Shown: in pieces, positions 51,669-59,243 of the stretch | Layout: the number at the start of each line of letters is the position of its first letter | Numbering within the stretch: the stretch's first letter is position 1 | Assembly: GCA_035516255.1 (NCBI GenBank) | Contig: DATJAL010000007.1 | Span: forward strand, 1 to 64,000 | DNA from: Chitinivibrionales bacterium | GTDB taxonomy: Bacteria > Fibrobacterota > Chitinivibrionia > Chitinivibrionales > FEN-1185 | Length of the DNA stretch: 64,000 bases | Direction of reading: 5' to 3' | The notes under the pieces: model-generated | What the model saw: the letters and a program-made list of their open reading frames with translations, nothing else | What the model was told of the DNA's origin: nothing | Databases searched by the model: none | Position numbers and translations under genes: made by a program

Positions 51669-52541
51669 ATGAAAGTCCTGGCAAGGATCCTTTCTGTTCT
51701 GGCGGTTTCCTGTCTGTTGTTCGTCATGCTCGCCGGCTGCGGCGTGAGCGAGAAGAAACTCAGCGACGCGGAGCAGCGCATGCAGACGCTGCAGGCCAAC
51801 GGCGTTCCCGACTCGATGCTCACCGAGGCGAGGGTAATGATCGCGCAGGCGCGGACGGCGAAAAAGCTCGGCAACGGCATCGGCGCCAAGGCCGATTACG
51901 ATTCCGCAATGTCAATCCTTACGAAGGCCGAGGGCAGTTACGGCGCCACCACGGCAGAGGTCCAGCCGCAGGTCGAGGCGGCGCGCAAAGCGCTCGGCGA
52001 GAAAAAACTCAACCTGTCCGGCGCCAACCTGAAGGAGGCGGACAGCCTTCTTGGGGTCATCGACGCGCTGGTAAACGCTAAAAACTGGCCCGATGCAAAG
52101 GCCAAATGCCAGGAAATAACCGCCATTTTCGCCGGCCTTGAAAAAGACGAGCAGCTTGCAAAAGAGGTGAAGCCGAAAATCATCGGCACCTGGATCGGCA
52201 TATTTAACGACAAGGAAAACGGCGCCAAGGCGGTGGAGAAAAAACAGTACACCTTCGCCGCCGACGGCAAAGTTGACATTACAGAAGAGCGGTCGGGGCT
52301 GACGAGTCCTGATCTCAAGGAGGATTGGAAGTTCCAGTCGGCCGGCAGGTACGAGTTGAAGGGGGACACCATTCTCATCTCGGTCACCCATGAAAAACGC
52401 CTCAAAATGGTCTACCAGCATCTCAAGCAGAAAAAATGGGTAAAGGACGAAAAACCGCTGTATGACTCGGTGATCACCAGCGGCAAAAAGGACCGGTACG
52501 TGGCGTTCGGGGACCTCAAGGATAATTTCAAGAAAAAGTAA
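51669..52541 (+). CDS. Lipoprotein with helical repeats and lipocalin-like C-terminus
   Basis: A 290-aa lipoprotein with lipobox ending LAGC (about Cys24). A helical region (about 30-165) has regularly spaced Ala and Leu, as in DUF4398-like proteins. A C-terminal strand-rich domain (IIGTWIGIFNDKENGAK, about residue 175 onward) suggests a small barrel. Function is unknown. It is the first gene of the second ECF cluster, although a rho-independent terminator separates it from the sigma gene. Confidence 0.62.
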   Translation: MKVLARILSVLAVSCLLFVMLAGCGVSEKKLSDAEQRMQTLQANGVPDSMLTEARVMIAQARTAKKLGNGIGAKADYDSAMSILTKAEGSYGATTAEVQPQVEAARKALGEKKLNLSGANLKEADSLLGVIDALVNAKNWPDAKAKCQEITAIFAGLEKDEQLAKEVKPKIIGTWIGIFNDKENGAKAVEKKQYTFAADGKVDITEERSGLTSPDLKEDWKFQSAGRYELKGDTILISVTHEKRLKMVYQHLKQKKWVKDEKPLYDSVITSGKKDRYVAFGDLKDNFKKK

Positions 52542-52572
52542 TGCCGCCGGTTTTTCGCATGGAGGAAATGAA

Positions 52573-52602
52573 GGCGGGCTGCGATGCCCGCCTCTTTTTT
52601 TA
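52573..52602 (+). terminator. Rho-independent terminator
   Basis: GGCGGGC (52573-52579) pairs with GCCCGCC (52586-52592), followed by TCTTTTTTTT. It ends the lipoprotein transcript before the ECF sigma gene at 52668. Confidence 0.8.
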
Positions 52603-52667: not shown

Positions 52668-53165
52668 ATGAATCAAGATCCCGGGACAGTTCCTGCGCAG
52701 GAGCTGTACGAAAAATACGGTTTTCTGATCCACCGCATCTGCCTCCGCATCCTCGGCTCGGAAGACGACGCCAAGGACGCGCTGCAGGCGGTGTTTCTAA
52801 AGCTGCTGCAGCAGTACGCCGGAATCCGGGATAAGGAAAGGACCGTTCCCTGGATTTTCAACACGGCCAAGCACCACTGCTTCAACATGCTCAGGGCGAA
52901 TAAAAAATTCGTTGACGGCATCGAGCCGGACGATATCGCGGAAGTGAAGGATGAGGGAGATTGTTTTGAAAAGAGAAACCTGATAAAAATGATCTTCATG
53001 AACCAGAGCAGGAAAGTTCGGGACGCGGTGTATTACACCTATGTGGAAGAGTTTGACCAGCGGGAGATACAAAAGATTACCGGCCAGTCTCCCGCCACCA
53101 TACGGAGAAATCTCATTAAATTCAAGAATAGCCTTCCCGGAATCAGGAAAAGGCTCGGGATATGA
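52668..53165 (+). CDS. ECF-family RNA polymerase sigma factor (second)
   Basis: A 165-aa sigma factor of the ECF group. Region 2 has EDDAKDALQAVFLKLLQQ and WIFNTAKHHCFNMLR. Region 4 has QREIQKITGQSPATIRRNL. I chose ATG 52668 because it gives the family-typical N-terminus; the open frame to 52584 crosses the terminator. It overlaps the following lipoprotein gene by 4 bp, and a zinc-finger anti-sigma gene follows at 53652. Confidence 0.85.
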   Translation: MNQDPGTVPAQELYEKYGFLIHRICLRILGSEDDAKDALQAVFLKLLQQYAGIRDKERTVPWIFNTAKHHCFNMLRANKKFVDGIEPDDIAEVKDEGDCFEKRNLIKMIFMNQSRKVRDAVYYTYVEEFDQREIQKITGQSPATIRRNLIKFKNSLPGIRKRLGI

Positions 53166-53629
53166 ATAAAAAAGCTGTTGCGATCTTGATTTTTTTTATA
53201 TTTACGGGGTGTAATACCTCCTCGCACTATGAAGCCTGCCCGGGGTGCATCAGCCCGTCGGTAGTCCTATCCTTCTATAACGCCTCGACAAATCAGAAAA
53301 TAATCCTTTCGGGATTGACTGCGATCTATTCCAACACCGACACCATTTCGGTTTCTTCAAATTCAAGGACCGATTCCGATTGGTGCTTTTTCAGCCCTGC
53401 CGATTCGGCTTACTCGGTTTTCCACGGACCCGGCAGTTATAAAATCATAATGAATGATCCGTTATACGCACAAGATTCCCTCGATACGATAAGGGTCGTC
53501 GACGACGGCACCGTTTGCAAAAGAATTTACACAAGGTACTTTGACGTCGGGCTGGTTCCGAAGTCTTTGGCGAAAACAGGCAGAAAACAAGCTCTCATCA
53601 TCCGCCAGTCAACAAAACTCGGATGCTGA
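53162..53629 (+). CDS. Small lipoprotein of unknown family
   Basis: A 155-aa lipoprotein with lipobox ending FTGC (about Cys17). Several Cys, Ser and Thr residues occur near the N-terminus, followed by a strand-rich region (IIMNDPLYAQDSLDTIRVV). I recognise no family. It overlaps the sigma gene by 4 bp and lies between sigma and anti-sigma, so it may be a signal-sensing or target component of the same circuit. Confidence 0.6.
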   Translation: MNKKAVAILIFFIFTGCNTSSHYEACPGCISPSVVLSFYNASTNQKIILSGLTAIYSNTDTISVSSNSRTDSDWCFFSPADSAYSVFHGPGSYKIIMNDPLYAQDSLDTIRVVDDGTVCKRIYTRYFDVGLVPKSLAKTGRKQALIIRQSTKLGC

Positions 53630-53651: not shown

Positions 53652-54404
53652 ATGGAACATGAATTTGACAAGATAGAACTGCTCTCCTACTTTGCGGGAG
53701 ACCTCCCAGCCGCAAAACGGGACGCAATCAAACGGCATGTTGCATCGTGCGAACAATGTGCCGGGTATCTTGCATCGCAGGAATCCGAAAAGGCTGCCTT
53801 TCTACGGGAGCAGCCGTTCGAGACGACCGCAGCCCGGTCAAGCGTTCGACACACAGGGAAGCTGCTGCTCTACACCCGCAGACAGGCATATGCGCTTGCC
53901 GCCTCGCTCATACTGTTGGTAGGCGCGAGTTACCTGTTCCTGTCGAGCAGGCCCGAGCCCGGCTACCGGATCAAGGGCGAAACGGCACTCAAACTGTTTG
54001 TGAAGAACCGCGAGGGCGGCGTTGAAAAACGCGCAGGCCGGGAATATTTCACCGGCGAGAAGATACAGTTCTTGTATTCCTGCGGCGCGAAAAACAATTT
54101 CGCGCTCGTCAGCATGGACACCGCGGGCGCAGTCACGGTGTATTACCCGCAGTCGCGCGACAGCTCGCTTTCGCTCGAGCGCGGCCAGGACCTGCCGCTC
54201 CCCAACAGCATCGCGCTCGACGAATACACCGGCCGCGAGCTGTTCATAGGTATCTTCTCGGAAAGGCCCTTTTTCGTGCCGCGCCTTGTTGAAAAGCTTA
54301 AAATTTCATTTGACAGACGCCACTCCATCGATTCAACCGCAATTGACGATAAGGAATTTACGGCCGTGCCGTACCTGCTTTCCATTCAACGGGAGAAGCG
54401 CTGA
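53652..54404 (+). CDS. Zinc-finger anti-sigma factor with DUF4384-like domain
   Basis: A 250-aa protein. An N-terminal zf-HC2 anti-sigma domain (His29, Cys33, Cys36) precedes a transmembrane helix (about 80-98). A periplasmic domain (about 110-240) follows, with GEKIQFLYSCGAKNNFALVS and VTVYYPQ, the pattern of DUF4384. This domain is known to occur with caspase-like proteins and kinases. It should bind the sigma factor at 52668. Its stop overlaps the caspase start by 1 base (TGATG). Confidence 0.75.
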   Translation: MEHEFDKIELLSYFAGDLPAAKRDAIKRHVASCEQCAGYLASQESEKAAFLREQPFETTAARSSVRHTGKLLLYTRRQAYALAASLILLVGASYLFLSSRPEPGYRIKGETALKLFVKNREGGVEKRAGREYFTGEKIQFLYSCGAKNNFALVSMDTAGAVTVYYPQSRDSSLSLERGQDLPLPNSIALDEYTGRELFIGIFSERPFFVPRLVEKLKISFDRRHSIDSTAIDDKEFTAVPYLLSIQREKR

Positions 54405-56155
54405 TGCCGAAGCATTCACTGCTCCTCATCATCCTCCTTGCCTCGTCATTTCTTGCTTTTGGCGAACGTTACGCGCTGCTGGTGGGCAACAGCACGGCGT
54501 CCGGCAATTATGCCGAACTCAAGTATGTCCAAAATGATCTTGCCGCTCTTTCGGACATCCTCATCGATTTTTGCGGGTTTGCAAAAGAGCATCTGGTGAT
54601 TCTTTACAACCAGACGCCGCAGGATTTCGAGCGCGCGCTCGGCGATTTTTCCGAACGGATGAGCGGCTCAAAAGGCAACATGTTCCTTCTTTATTATTCT
54701 GGTCACGCCGACGTTGCCAACCTCAAAATGGGAAGCGGCGATTACCCGCTCAGGACGCTGAAGGACAAGCTCACTGCCTTCCCCGCCGACATCCGCATCG
54801 GCATCTTTGACGCGTGCCAGAGCGGCAGCTTCACGCGCATCAAGGGCGGCAGGCTCGACGAGCCGTTTCTGTTCAGGGACGACGCCAAGACCAAGGGCCA
54901 GGTGATCCTCTGCTCGAGCTCGATAGACGAAAACGCGCAGGAGTCCGACCGGTACGGGAACTCCGTTTTCACGTTCCACTTTGTCAATGCGCTCCGCGGC
55001 AGCGGCGACATGGCCGGCGACGGCCGCGTAACGCTGGGCGAGGCGTACCAGTACGCCTACAACCACACCATCTCGAGCACGGCAGGCACCTCGGGCGGCG
55101 TGCAACACCCCTCCTATCAGTTCCGCATCCAGGGCGAGGGCGACATCGTGCTCGCCGACCTCAACATCCGCACGCGCGGCATCCTGCTTTCGGGCGACGT
55201 GGCCGGCGACATCACCATCCTCAGCGACAAGGGGATCGTGGTGGCAGACCTTGCGAAAAAGGCGAATACCGGCGTCATGATCGCGCTTAAGCAGGGCGCC
55301 TACCAGGTGATCAACGGCAGGGGCGAGCAGCGCTTCATCGCACGTGTCAAGGTTGACGAAAAGTCCGTGGTCGCGGTGAAAAACGCCGACTTTTCACCCG
55401 ACGAACAGGCCGCGGCCAATAAAAAGGGCGAAGAGACCCGGCGCGGGGCGCAGATCGGCATTACCCTGTCCGGCGAGTACGGCATGTACAACTTCACCGG
55501 TCTTTCTTCCGCCCTCGCGCAGCGTTTCGCGGGTTTCAACGCGTTCTCCATGAGCCCGGGGTTCGCCTTTCCGAAATACCTCATGGTGCCGGCGATAACC
55601 GGTGAGGTCATTGTCAGGAAACAATACGAGGCGCACCTGGGGTTTGGAAATTACTACACCGCCTCGTCTTCACATTACAACGGGGCTGAAATGAACCTGA
55701 CCGATAATTCGTCCTACGCCTGCCGGCTGCAGGTGGCGCAGGCGCTGAACGTCACGGCGATCGACATCGGCGGCGGCTACCGTTTCCAACTACCCTATGT
55801 AAAAAATTTCTCCCTGCACGTGGGGCTCATGGTTTACGAACCGGAGTTGAAAGTTCAGTCCACGTTCTATGATTCTCTGTACGACAGGGAAGTCTCCGGT
55901 TCGGCCACCTACCGGGGAACCGCCGCGGCGCCGTACCTTGCCGTCGGCTACACCTGGCCCGCGCTCAAATGGCTGGACATCGGCGCGAAAATCCGCTACC
56001 GGTACCAGTACGGCACATGCGGGCTCGGCATCGATTCGCCCGTCCCGGAGCAAAATCCCGCCGGAGCCGCGCTGACGCCGCTTTCCTGCAACTTTGGCGG
56101 GCTGGACGGCAGCGTGTTTATCAACGTGCATCTTTCATTTACAAGATCGGAATGA
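54404..56155 (+). CDS. Caspase-like protease fused to a C-terminal beta-barrel
   Basis: A 583-aa secreted protein. The signal peptide (about 1-18) is followed by a caspase-fold (C14) domain. His101 in LYYSGHAD and Cys138 in FDACQSGSF form the dyad. The last roughly 235 residues (from about 347) consist of alternating-hydrophobic strands ending in an aromatic, barrel-like sequence. Caspase-like proteins in bacteria are known in stress and programmed-death pathways. I infer an outer-membrane anchor with the protease in the periplasm, or surface-exposed. It is co-expressed with the sigma/anti-sigma pair. Confidence 0.75.
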   Translation: MPKHSLLLIILLASSFLAFGERYALLVGNSTASGNYAELKYVQNDLAALSDILIDFCGFAKEHLVILYNQTPQDFERALGDFSERMSGSKGNMFLLYYSGHADVANLKMGSGDYPLRTLKDKLTAFPADIRIGIFDACQSGSFTRIKGGRLDEPFLFRDDAKTKGQVILCSSSIDENAQESDRYGNSVFTFHFVNALRGSGDMAGDGRVTLGEAYQYAYNHTISSTAGTSGGVQHPSYQFRIQGEGDIVLADLNIRTRGILLSGDVAGDITILSDKGIVVADLAKKANTGVMIALKQGAYQVINGRGEQRFIARVKVDEKSVVAVKNADFSPDEQAAANKKGEETRRGAQIGITLSGEYGMYNFTGLSSALAQRFAGFNAFSMSPGFAFPKYLMVPAITGEVIVRKQYEAHLGFGNYYTASSSHYNGAEMNLTDNSSYACRLQVAQALNVTAIDIGGGYRFQLPYVKNFSLHVGLMVYEPELKVQSTFYDSLYDREVSGSATYRGTAAAPYLAVGYTWPALKWLDIGAKIRYRYQYGTCGLGIDSPVPEQNPAGAALTPLSCNFGGLDGSVFINVHLSFTRSE

Positions 56156-56159
56156 TTTT

Positions 56160-56903
56160 ATGAATACCGTTTTTCGAAGCATCCTTGTCACCGCCGTGGC
56201 CCTCCTTGCGGGATGCGCCTCGAACATGGCGCCGAATAGCATCGGCACGCCCCAGAACCCGCCGTTCCCTACTACGCAAAGCATCCTGCCGCTGGCCGCG
56301 GGGAACCAATGGGATTATTCCTACACCGCCTACGACCCGCTCGGGAACAAGATCAGCCCGAGCAGGGTCAACCTCGTGCTCACACTTCCCGCTGTTTACG
56401 GTCTTGTCAATGACACCCAGCTCGTGGCCATCACCCGGCAGAATTACCAGCAGGACTTTCCGGCATACGTTTATAAATACGAATGGGACAACCGCGACAG
56501 CGGCGCGCTCGTGGTGCACCGGGGAGCCTATGCGCTTGACAAGCGCGGGTTATACGTCATCGGATGGTACCGCGATAGCGTAACGCACCTATTCCCGGCC
56601 GAAAAGCTGTGGCTCGCCTACCCCGCCGATAGCGGCAAGACATGGACCTACAATCCCGATTCCGCAAACGATTCCGCCTTTGCCGTCACCATGGAAATCC
56701 TGTCAACGCGAGCGCAGTTTTTTGTGCCCAACTCAAGCATGGTGACGGGCGGCGCGTTTTACAAATGCTACCTCTACAAAGAGACAGGCATCGGATATGT
56801 GAGCTATTATTACTACAACCCGGACATCGGCTGCGTGGGGTATCTCAATTACAGCAGCGGGAAACTGACGGCAAGCTATTACTTGAAAAACTTCAATGGA
56901 TAA
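56160..56903 (+). CDS. Lipoprotein of unknown function
   Basis: A 247-aa lipoprotein with lipobox ending LAGC (about Cys18). It is rich in strands and Tyr (SYYYYNP-type), suggesting an extracellular or periplasmic domain of unknown type. It starts 4 bp after the caspase-barrel gene and is the last gene of the operon. I recognise no family. Confidence 0.6.
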   Translation: MNTVFRSILVTAVALLAGCASNMAPNSIGTPQNPPFPTTQSILPLAAGNQWDYSYTAYDPLGNKISPSRVNLVLTLPAVYGLVNDTQLVAITRQNYQQDFPAYVYKYEWDNRDSGALVVHRGAYALDKRGLYVIGWYRDSVTHLFPAEKLWLAYPADSGKTWTYNPDSANDSAFAVTMEILSTRAQFFVPNSSMVTGGAFYKCYLYKETGIGYVSYYYYNPDIGCVGYLNYSSGKLTASYYLKNFNG

Positions 56904-58036: not shown

Positions 58037-59135
58037 CTATTGGAAATTCAGCAAATAAGCCTCAATGAACATATCCAGGTCCCCGTCCAATACTCCCTGC
58101 GCGTTCGACGTCTCCACCTCGGTACGGTGGTCCTTCACCAGGTTGTACGGATGGAGCACGTAGGAGCGGATCTGGCTTCCCCATTCGATCTTCTTCTTCA
58201 CCGCAAGCTTGTCCTGGCGCTTCTTGTCCTCCTGCTCCTTGTAAAACTGCTTGACGCGGCTCTTGAGAATCTTCATCGCCACATCCCGGTTCTTGATCTG
58301 CGAGCGCTCGTTCTGGCATGCCACGACGATGTTGGTGGGGATATGCGTCATGCGCACTGCGGAGTCGGTCTTGTTCACGTGCTGGCCGCCGGCGCCGCTG
58401 GAGCGGTAGGTGTCCACACGGATGTCTTTTTCGTCAAGCTCGAAATCGTCGGCGTCCTCGATCATGGGATAGGCATACACCGACGCGAACGAGGTATGGC
58501 GCCGTGCATTGGCGTCGAACGGCGAGATGCGCACGAGCCGGTGCACGCCGCATTCCGCCTTGAGATGACCGTACACGTAATCGCCCTGCACTTGGGCAGT
58601 GACGCTCTTGAGACCCGCGCCCTCGCCGGGCTGGCTCTCGAGCACGGTGTAGGAGAAGCCCTTGTTCTCCATCCACCGGCAATACATGCGGAACAGCATC
58701 TCGCACCAGTCGCAGCTCTCGGTGCCGCCGGCGCCGCTGTGGACGGTGAGGATCGCGGGCCGGTCGTCGTCCTCGCCCGAAAGCTTGCGCACGAACTCGA
58801 GATGCGCTATTTCCGATTCAAGCTGCGACGCGTGCTCGGTGAGCTCAGCCGTAATACCCGCGTCAGGATCATGCAGTGATAGGTTAAACAATTCAAGAAT
58901 GTCGTCGGAGTCTTTTTTCGTCTTGTCCCATTGGGTGATGACGTCCCTGAGGCTTTTTATTTTCTTGAGGGTCGCCTGCGCTTTTTCGTTGTCGTTCCAG
59001 AACCCTTGTTGTGTCGTTTCCTGTTCGCTTTCTAAAAGGGTTTTTCTCTTTTCATCAACGTCAAAGATACCTCCGCAGGTTTTCGACACGGCCCGCTAGG
59101 TCCAACAGATGATTTTTTTCAAGTTTTTCAGCCAT
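58037..59135 (-). CDS. prfB: Peptide chain release factor 2 with programmed frameshift
   Basis: RF2, which terminates at UAA and UGA. The full protein has about 365 residues and is read through a +1 frameshift. The first 24 codons run from ATG 59135 (AAGGAG upstream) to an in-frame TGA (59063-59061). The rest is read in the +1 frame from GAC. The GGQ motif (SSGAGGQHVNK) for peptide release is present, and the decoding SPF motif lies near ISPFDANARRHTSFASV. Without the shift the remaining ORF is 58037-59089. It is separated from nrdJ by a divergent A+T-rich region. Confidence 0.93.
59060..59075 (-). promoter_or_regulatory. prfB programmed +1 frameshift site
   Basis: On the minus strand CGGAGGTATCTTTGAC (59075-59060) contains the internal Shine-Dalgarno GGAGG, the slippery CTT and the stop TGA followed by C. 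This is the classical RF2 autoregulatory site: low RF2 lets the ribosome shift past TGA. Confidence 0.9.
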
Positions 59136-59243
59136 TGCAACTCCTTTTTTATTTCATGGATGCTTTAAAATACAATAATAATTTCAACTCTCATAAATTT
59201 CTTGCCAATACGTATTAAATACGATAATATTAAAATTGTTGGA

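Follow-up and report, generated by a model that had tools for sequence, protein, structure and literature searches.

A caspase joined to a predicted outer-membrane barrel is encoded third in a conserved ECF sigma/anti-sigma operon and may cleave its anti-sigma factor

In the 64,000-nucleotide stretch of DNA analysed here (the window), a caspase fused to an apparent outer-membrane-type barrel is encoded by the third gene of a conserved operon that also encodes an ECF sigma factor and an anti-sigma factor, a context that the first-pass annotation of this DNA had overlooked. Closely similar basic-Gly motifs stand in a loop of the caspase (site A), in the linker before its barrel (site B) and in the anti-sigma factor (site C). 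We propose, with a rough probability of 0.62, that the caspase cuts itself at sites A and B and then cuts the anti-sigma factor at site C, releasing the sigma factor; these cleavage events are inferred. For the broader claim, that a widespread and undescribed pathway exists in which a caspase freed from its barrel activates an ECF sigma factor by cutting the anti-sigma factor between Lys and Gly of a shared [T]R-x-K-G motif, we put the odds only slightly above even. The operon and the shared motifs are more informative about function than the barrel.

Results

A sigma/anti-sigma pair upstream of the caspase gene

The operon and its left border comprise the following features.

52572..52601, + strand: terminator-like stem-loop and T-run at the end of the preceding gene, left border of the operon (consensus scan)
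52668..53165, + strand: ECF-type sigma factor of 165 aa, counted from the ATG at 52668 (Pfam, NCBIfam)
53162..53629, + strand: small ORF of 155 aa with a lipoprotein-like N-terminus, FIFTGC (translation)
53652..54404, + strand: anti-sigma factor, 250 aa (sub-threshold Pfam matches; AlphaFold model, pLDDT 89.9)
53865..53942, + strand: membrane helix formed by anti-sigma residues 72-97 (AlphaFold model)
54404..56155, + strand: gene of the caspase-barrel protein (uninterrupted ORF, 583 aa)

The sigma gene matches Pfam Sigma70_r2 with an E value of 1e-10 and NCBIfam TIGR02937 above its cut-off, and its relatives, mostly 157-218 aa long, occupy the equivalent position in other loci. Its start in the ORF list (52584) falls within the terminator, and 52668 is the likely start. 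The stem-loop itself consists of 8 pairs, 7 of them GC, followed by the T-run, and alone is no evidence of function. The anti-sigma factor is laid out as cytoplasmic zf-HC2-like helices, one membrane helix and a periplasmic DUF4384-like beta domain; its Pfam matches to zf-HC2 (E 2.5e-4) and DUF4384 (E 1.8e-4) are both slightly below the cut-offs, and a Foldseek search with its model returned weak Ig-like matches only (best E 2e-3). An ECF sigma factor with regions 2 and 4 only thus stands beside a one-helix anti-sigma factor with a zinc-finger-like domain. Sigma region 4 and zf-HC2 are below the Pfam cut-offs in the window, and the gene pair recurs in most relatives. These data indicate that a sigma/anti-sigma pair is present in the window, whose binding and inhibition are inferred. 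The caspase gene directly follows, its start overlapping the end of the anti-sigma gene at 54404. For the small ORF between sigma and anti-sigma genes, no Pfam match was obtained, and none of the 80 related loci has a homologue. Elsewhere the sigma and anti-sigma genes are contiguous, and the intervening ORF was seen in the window only.

Lipoprotein-like genes with no Pfam family above the cut-off lie on either side of the operon, at 51669-52541 and 56142-56903. Elsewhere in the window, prfB (release factor 2; 59055-59136, - strand) carries its classic programmed frameshift signal, CGGAGGTATCTTTGAC, and is ordinary.

The operon recurs across phyla

Local HMM searches and a genome scan placed a sigma/anti-sigma pair directly upstream of the caspase gene in nearly all of 80 loci, which came from Fibrobacterota, Spirochaetota, Myxococcota, Bdellovibrionota, Acidobacteria, Aminicenantes, Gammaproteobacteria and others. 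The exceptions were contig ends and two loci, L097 and L103; at L097 the caspase gene and the sigma/anti-sigma pair lie on separate contigs of one genome. Across 60 Fibrobacterota genomes, an anti-sigma gene was immediately upstream of 56 of the 60 caspase matches, and a caspase gene was directly downstream of 56 of the 61 anti-sigma genes, three of the five unpaired ones being at contig ends. In 21 genomes, mostly non-Fibrobacterota and picked for carrying one of the caspase loci, 57/73 caspases and 57/63 anti-sigma factors were paired. At least three of the unpaired caspases (L200, L201 and L204) have weaker sigma and anti-sigma matches upstream.

Two further observations concern gene arrangement and number. 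The caspase of L103/L209 has no sigma/anti-sigma pair upstream but is followed, at a distance of about 650 bases, by a sigma gene. The Myxococcaceae genomes G065, G066, G073 and G076 (loci L063, L064, L086 and L107) show a marked expansion, with about 11-22 caspase-family matches and 20-28 matches to the anti-sigma model per genome.

An exported caspase with an orthocaspase/metacaspase-type active site

The caspase-barrel protein was divided as follows.

54404..54463, + strand: signal peptide, residues 1-20 (hydrophobic, signal-like N-terminus in 74/77 complete relatives; type assigned by inspection)
54464..55168, + strand: caspase (C14) domain, residues 21-255 (Pfam and VIA-align)
54536..54538, + strand: Asp45, predicted S1-pocket acid, equivalent to TbMCA2 Asp95 (81/81 aligned relatives; register from the metacaspase-1 LRGCIND alignment)
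54704..54706, + strand: catalytic His101 in YYSGHA (81/81)
54809..54817, + strand: Asp136-Ala-Cys138, S1 acid and catalytic Cys, in DACQSG (81/81)
55178..55378, + strand: beta-sandwich, residues 259-325, set between caspase and barrel (modelled secondary structure)
55451..56134, + strand: predicted 8-stranded outer-membrane-type beta-barrel, residues 350-577 (AlphaFold, Foldseek, hydrophobicity alternation)

Pfam Peptidase_C14 matches residues 22-202 (E 7e-14, above the gathering cut-off) and has this gene as its single match in the entire 4.3-Mb genome. In the AlphaFold model (mean pLDDT 78.7, from a 12-sequence alignment), the signal peptide is followed by a caspase fold (21-255), a beta-sandwich (about 259-325), a disordered linker (335-347) and long strands (350-577). 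VIA-align superposed the caspase part on Arabidopsis metacaspase-4 with a Z of 20.3 over 207 residues, and Foldseek matched the first part of the model to caspases and to MALT1, the latter being the top match. These results bear out the first-pass annotation of a caspase-like protease at 54404-56155 with His101 and Cys138 in place, both residues being invariant. By domain and by fold, the protein is a member of the C14 family of orthocaspase/metacaspase type, although its protease activity is inferred. The genome falls within Fibrobacterota, and its closest named relative, 'Fibrobacteres bacterium isolate fen_1185', has a caspase protein that is 64-65% identical.

In TbMCA2, Asp95 and Asp211 are the metacaspase S1 acids that confer basic P1 specificity (PMC4357240, PMC6426788). 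Alignment identifies D45 and D136 as their counterparts, and both aspartates are kept in 81/81 aligned relatives, as expected of an enzyme with basic P1. From these residues the caspase is predicted to cleave after Lys or Arg, the activity itself being inferred.

A predicted outer-membrane-type barrel in an exchangeable C-terminal part

Residues 350-577 form eight or nine long amphipathic strands with pLDDT mostly 85-94 in the AlphaFold model, and Foldseek matched this part to Ail, the OmpA transmembrane domain and a Legionella porin with E values of about 1e-6. The hydrophobicity alternation of the strands exceeded that of all 2000 shuffles. A C-terminal Phe, Trp or Tyr, typical of outer-membrane proteins, was found in 29/77 complete relatives against a background of 9%. 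An Omp85/BamA-type assembly factor is likewise encoded in the genome, which means that the bacterium has an outer membrane. Together with the signal peptides, these data support well the modelled joining of a caspase to an outer-membrane-type barrel, as the first-pass annotation had suggested for the roughly 235 residues after the caspase, with strand closure not measured from coordinates and the outer-membrane location inferred. No family was named for the barrel region by Pfam or NCBIfam, and VIA-align of the whole model returned caspase rows only, which has no bearing on the barrel. A soluble beta-rich domain could be envisaged instead, given that the model rests on only 12 sequences and that closure is unmeasured, but we regard this as highly improbable in view of the amphipathic strands, the OmpA, Ail and porin matches, the signal peptides and the C-terminal aromatic residues.

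Distant relatives align over residues 1-345 only, and the C-terminus beyond differs by lineage, being about 235 aa as in the window, about 165 aa, or, in a Fibrobacter-like genus, made of LA_2272/VC2662-type surface repeats with a further C-terminal stretch behind them. The caspase and the sandwich therefore appear to be the constant part of the family and the membrane part exchangeable. In one Myxococcaceae genome (L198, 2108-4000), the caspase and the KG linker are kept and a TPR-like C-terminus replaces the barrel. In two Myxococcaceae genomes (L205, 3467-4075; L206, 2092-2715), an anti-sigma gene is followed by a gene for a protein of about 205 aa resembling only the barrel end, and the caspase is encoded elsewhere.

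Three matching basic-Gly motifs

The three motifs are located as follows.

53967..53978, + strand: site C, R-I-K-G, residues 106-109 of the anti-sigma factor, predicted cut after Lys108 (anti-sigma conservation)
54833..54850, + strand: site A, T-R-I-K-G-G, residues 144-149 of the caspase, predicted autoprocessing loop (9 residues past the catalytic Cys)
55424..55429, + strand: site B, Lys341-Gly342 in the pre-barrel linker, predicted release site (conservation)

Sites A, B and C have a common [T]-R-x-[KR]-G signature, and in the window RIKG itself is found at site A of the caspase as well as at site C of the anti-sigma factor. At site A (K147-G148), [KR]G is present in 162/162 sequences, with Arg at P3 in 126/161; at site B, [KR]G is present in 155/157 distinct relatives. 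Apart from these two sites, no column of the caspase alignment is 95% basic or more. Site C has [KR]G in 122/125 distinct anti-sigma factors from all fetched loci, usually as R-x-K-G. In an alignment of 54 anti-sigma sequences with a mean column identity of 24%, invariance is limited to the start Met, K108, G109 and D156. Two columns of the anti-sigma alignment are at least 95% basic, site C and one near the C-terminus. The motif counts include related sequences and paralogues and are therefore not counts of independent events.

Site A lies inside loop 140-158 and site B inside linker 335-347, both with pLDDT below 50, and site C stands in coil 98-111 (pLDDT about 66), 11 residues outside the membrane helix, ahead of the folded beta domain and upstream of the DUF4384 match. 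Judging by the models, the three sites are probably in flexible segments.

The exact site B is absent from two caspases, that of L064, in which the motif is displaced by the alignment, and that of L103/L209, which also has no adjacent sigma/anti-sigma pair. Three anti-sigma factors have no [KR]G at site C. One of them (L147) also has no neighbouring caspase, which fits the cleavage idea, whereas the other two, L179 (KS) and L152 (KAG), do have caspases, adjacent in the case of L179, which counts against it.

Discussion

The conserved operon, the invariant catalytic and S1 residues and the three matching motifs suggest a route from outer membrane to promoter. In the proposed mechanism, an exported Lys/Arg-specific caspase would be anchored in the outer membrane via its barrel, with the protease on the periplasmic side, and an inner-membrane anti-sigma factor would keep the ECF sigma factor at the membrane. 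A signal, probably envelope- or barrel-related, would arrive at the barrel or the caspase, which would then cut itself at site A, in the loop behind the catalytic Cys, and at site B, in the linker, becoming active and free in the periplasm. The freed caspase would act as site-1 protease, cutting the R-x-K-G of the anti-sigma factor at site C and removing its periplasmic domain, and a site-2 protease (RseP-type M50) would complete the cleavage to release the sigma factor. The signal, the cleavage events and their order, the role of release and the site-2 step are all inferred.

In animal caspases, cleavage of the linker that follows the catalytic Cys brings about activation, and site A has this position. 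Release at site B would bring site C, beside the inner membrane, within range of the protease, which could hardly get there while held at the outer membrane by a short linker, and the distance of site C from the helix is what is expected for a site-1 cut. The Lys/Arg specificity predicted from D45 and D136 agrees with all three sites. An RseP-type M50 protease is encoded in the genome, but M50 proteases are near-universal and its presence is merely permissive.

Some observations weigh against the mechanism. The invariance of site A could be structural, with two glycines near the active site. The replacement of the barrel in some relatives, as by the TPR-like C-terminus of L198, is another such point. 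[KR]G is also kept in orphan anti-sigma factors and caspases that are not adjacent to each other (L193, L194, L202, L203 and L205-L207); most genomes bearing such orphans carry several of these systems, so this retention does not settle the matter. TRG is likewise present in L143, an orphan DUF4384 membrane protein that has no cytoplasmic domain.

The caspase might alternatively be the output of the sigma factor, such that an envelope-sensing pair would drive an outer-membrane protease acting on surface and periplasmic proteins, to mature or degrade them. ECF operons frequently include their own targets, and the caspase gene does share the operon. For autoprocessing, sites A and B would be enough, and the anti-sigma site would be cut by another protease. 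We nevertheless consider this unlikely, for it leaves unexplained both the match of the anti-sigma R-x-K-G to the caspase loop and the pairing of caspase and anti-sigma factor in most of the sampled genomes. More doubtful still is a function in cell death or defence placed under sigma control. Some bacterial caspases do act in defence or programmed death, but this one is exported with an outer-membrane anchor and is present as one copy in the genome, in a regulatory operon. PADLOC had no model match for the caspase or the anti-sigma factor and one weak match for the sigma factor (E 0.005), and no relative was found in the phage collection searched, so neither a defence role nor a phage origin receives support, and we give this explanation very little credence.

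Another possibility is suggested by TonB-dependent signalling (FecA-FecR-FecI, FoxA-FoxR-FoxI), which like the present module combines an outer-membrane barrel, a one-helix anti-sigma factor and an ECF sigma factor. The outer-membrane protein might simply bind the periplasmic domain of the anti-sigma factor, with the protease severing only its own signalling part and the anti-sigma motif serving in binding or folding. FoxA does lose its signalling domain by cleavage from the barrel, and this domain then protects the anti-sigma factor (PMC11637429). Site C, however, belongs to a coil modelled with low confidence, outside the folded domain, and resembles site A, not a folding element, and we find this explanation improbable. 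The module also differs from TonB-dependent systems in that its predicted barrel is small (8 strands, OmpA/Ail-like) and a protease takes the place of the TonB plug and signalling domain. A TonB-dependent receptor as such, with 22 strands, a plug and an N-terminal signalling domain, was ruled out by the 8-stranded barrel and by the lack of such domains in Pfam and in the model.

The predicted cleavage of the anti-sigma factor by the caspase resembles the Sigma-E system (DegS, RseP, RseA), in which likewise a near-membrane site-1 cut of the periplasmic anti-sigma domain precedes site-2 cleavage. Here, the site-1 protease would be a caspase (clan CD cysteine protease) derived from the outer membrane and not an inner-membrane PDZ serine protease like DegS. 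A DegS-type protease, with trypsin-like serine and PDZ domains, was also considered for the caspase-barrel protein itself and rejected, Peptidase_C14 being its sole Pfam match. With orthocaspases and metacaspases (C14B) the protein has in common the fold, the dyad, the S1 acids and the predicted Lys/Arg specificity, whereas its export, its fusion to a beta-sandwich and a barrel and its sigma/anti-sigma operon set it apart. The paracaspase MALT1 (caspase-Ig3) similarly has a caspase followed by a beta-sandwich, but it has neither signal peptide nor barrel, and whole-model TM-scores are low. For ECF54 sigma factors, whose context includes CHAT (caspase-like) and subtilase domains, a connection with a caspase-like protease has been proposed (PMC8999054). 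There the suggested target of the protease is the sigma factor itself, and ECF54 has no anti-sigma factor, in contrast to the present module, in which the anti-sigma factor carries the putative site. No description of a caspase/ECF/anti-sigma module or of a caspase-barrel protein was found in the literature searched; a listing in the main ECF classification (NAR 2021) is not excluded, and novelty is therefore claimed with reserve.

For most bacterial caspases the physiological substrates are unknown, and these proteases are often discussed as death factors. With the module described here, one class of bacterial caspases gains a likely substrate that is encoded next door and has a predicted cut site. 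If the proposed mechanism is true, it would constitute a signalling route from outer membrane to promoter without TonB, across many phyla and in many copies in myxobacteria, and the caspase would be a transmembrane signal carrier, not an executioner.
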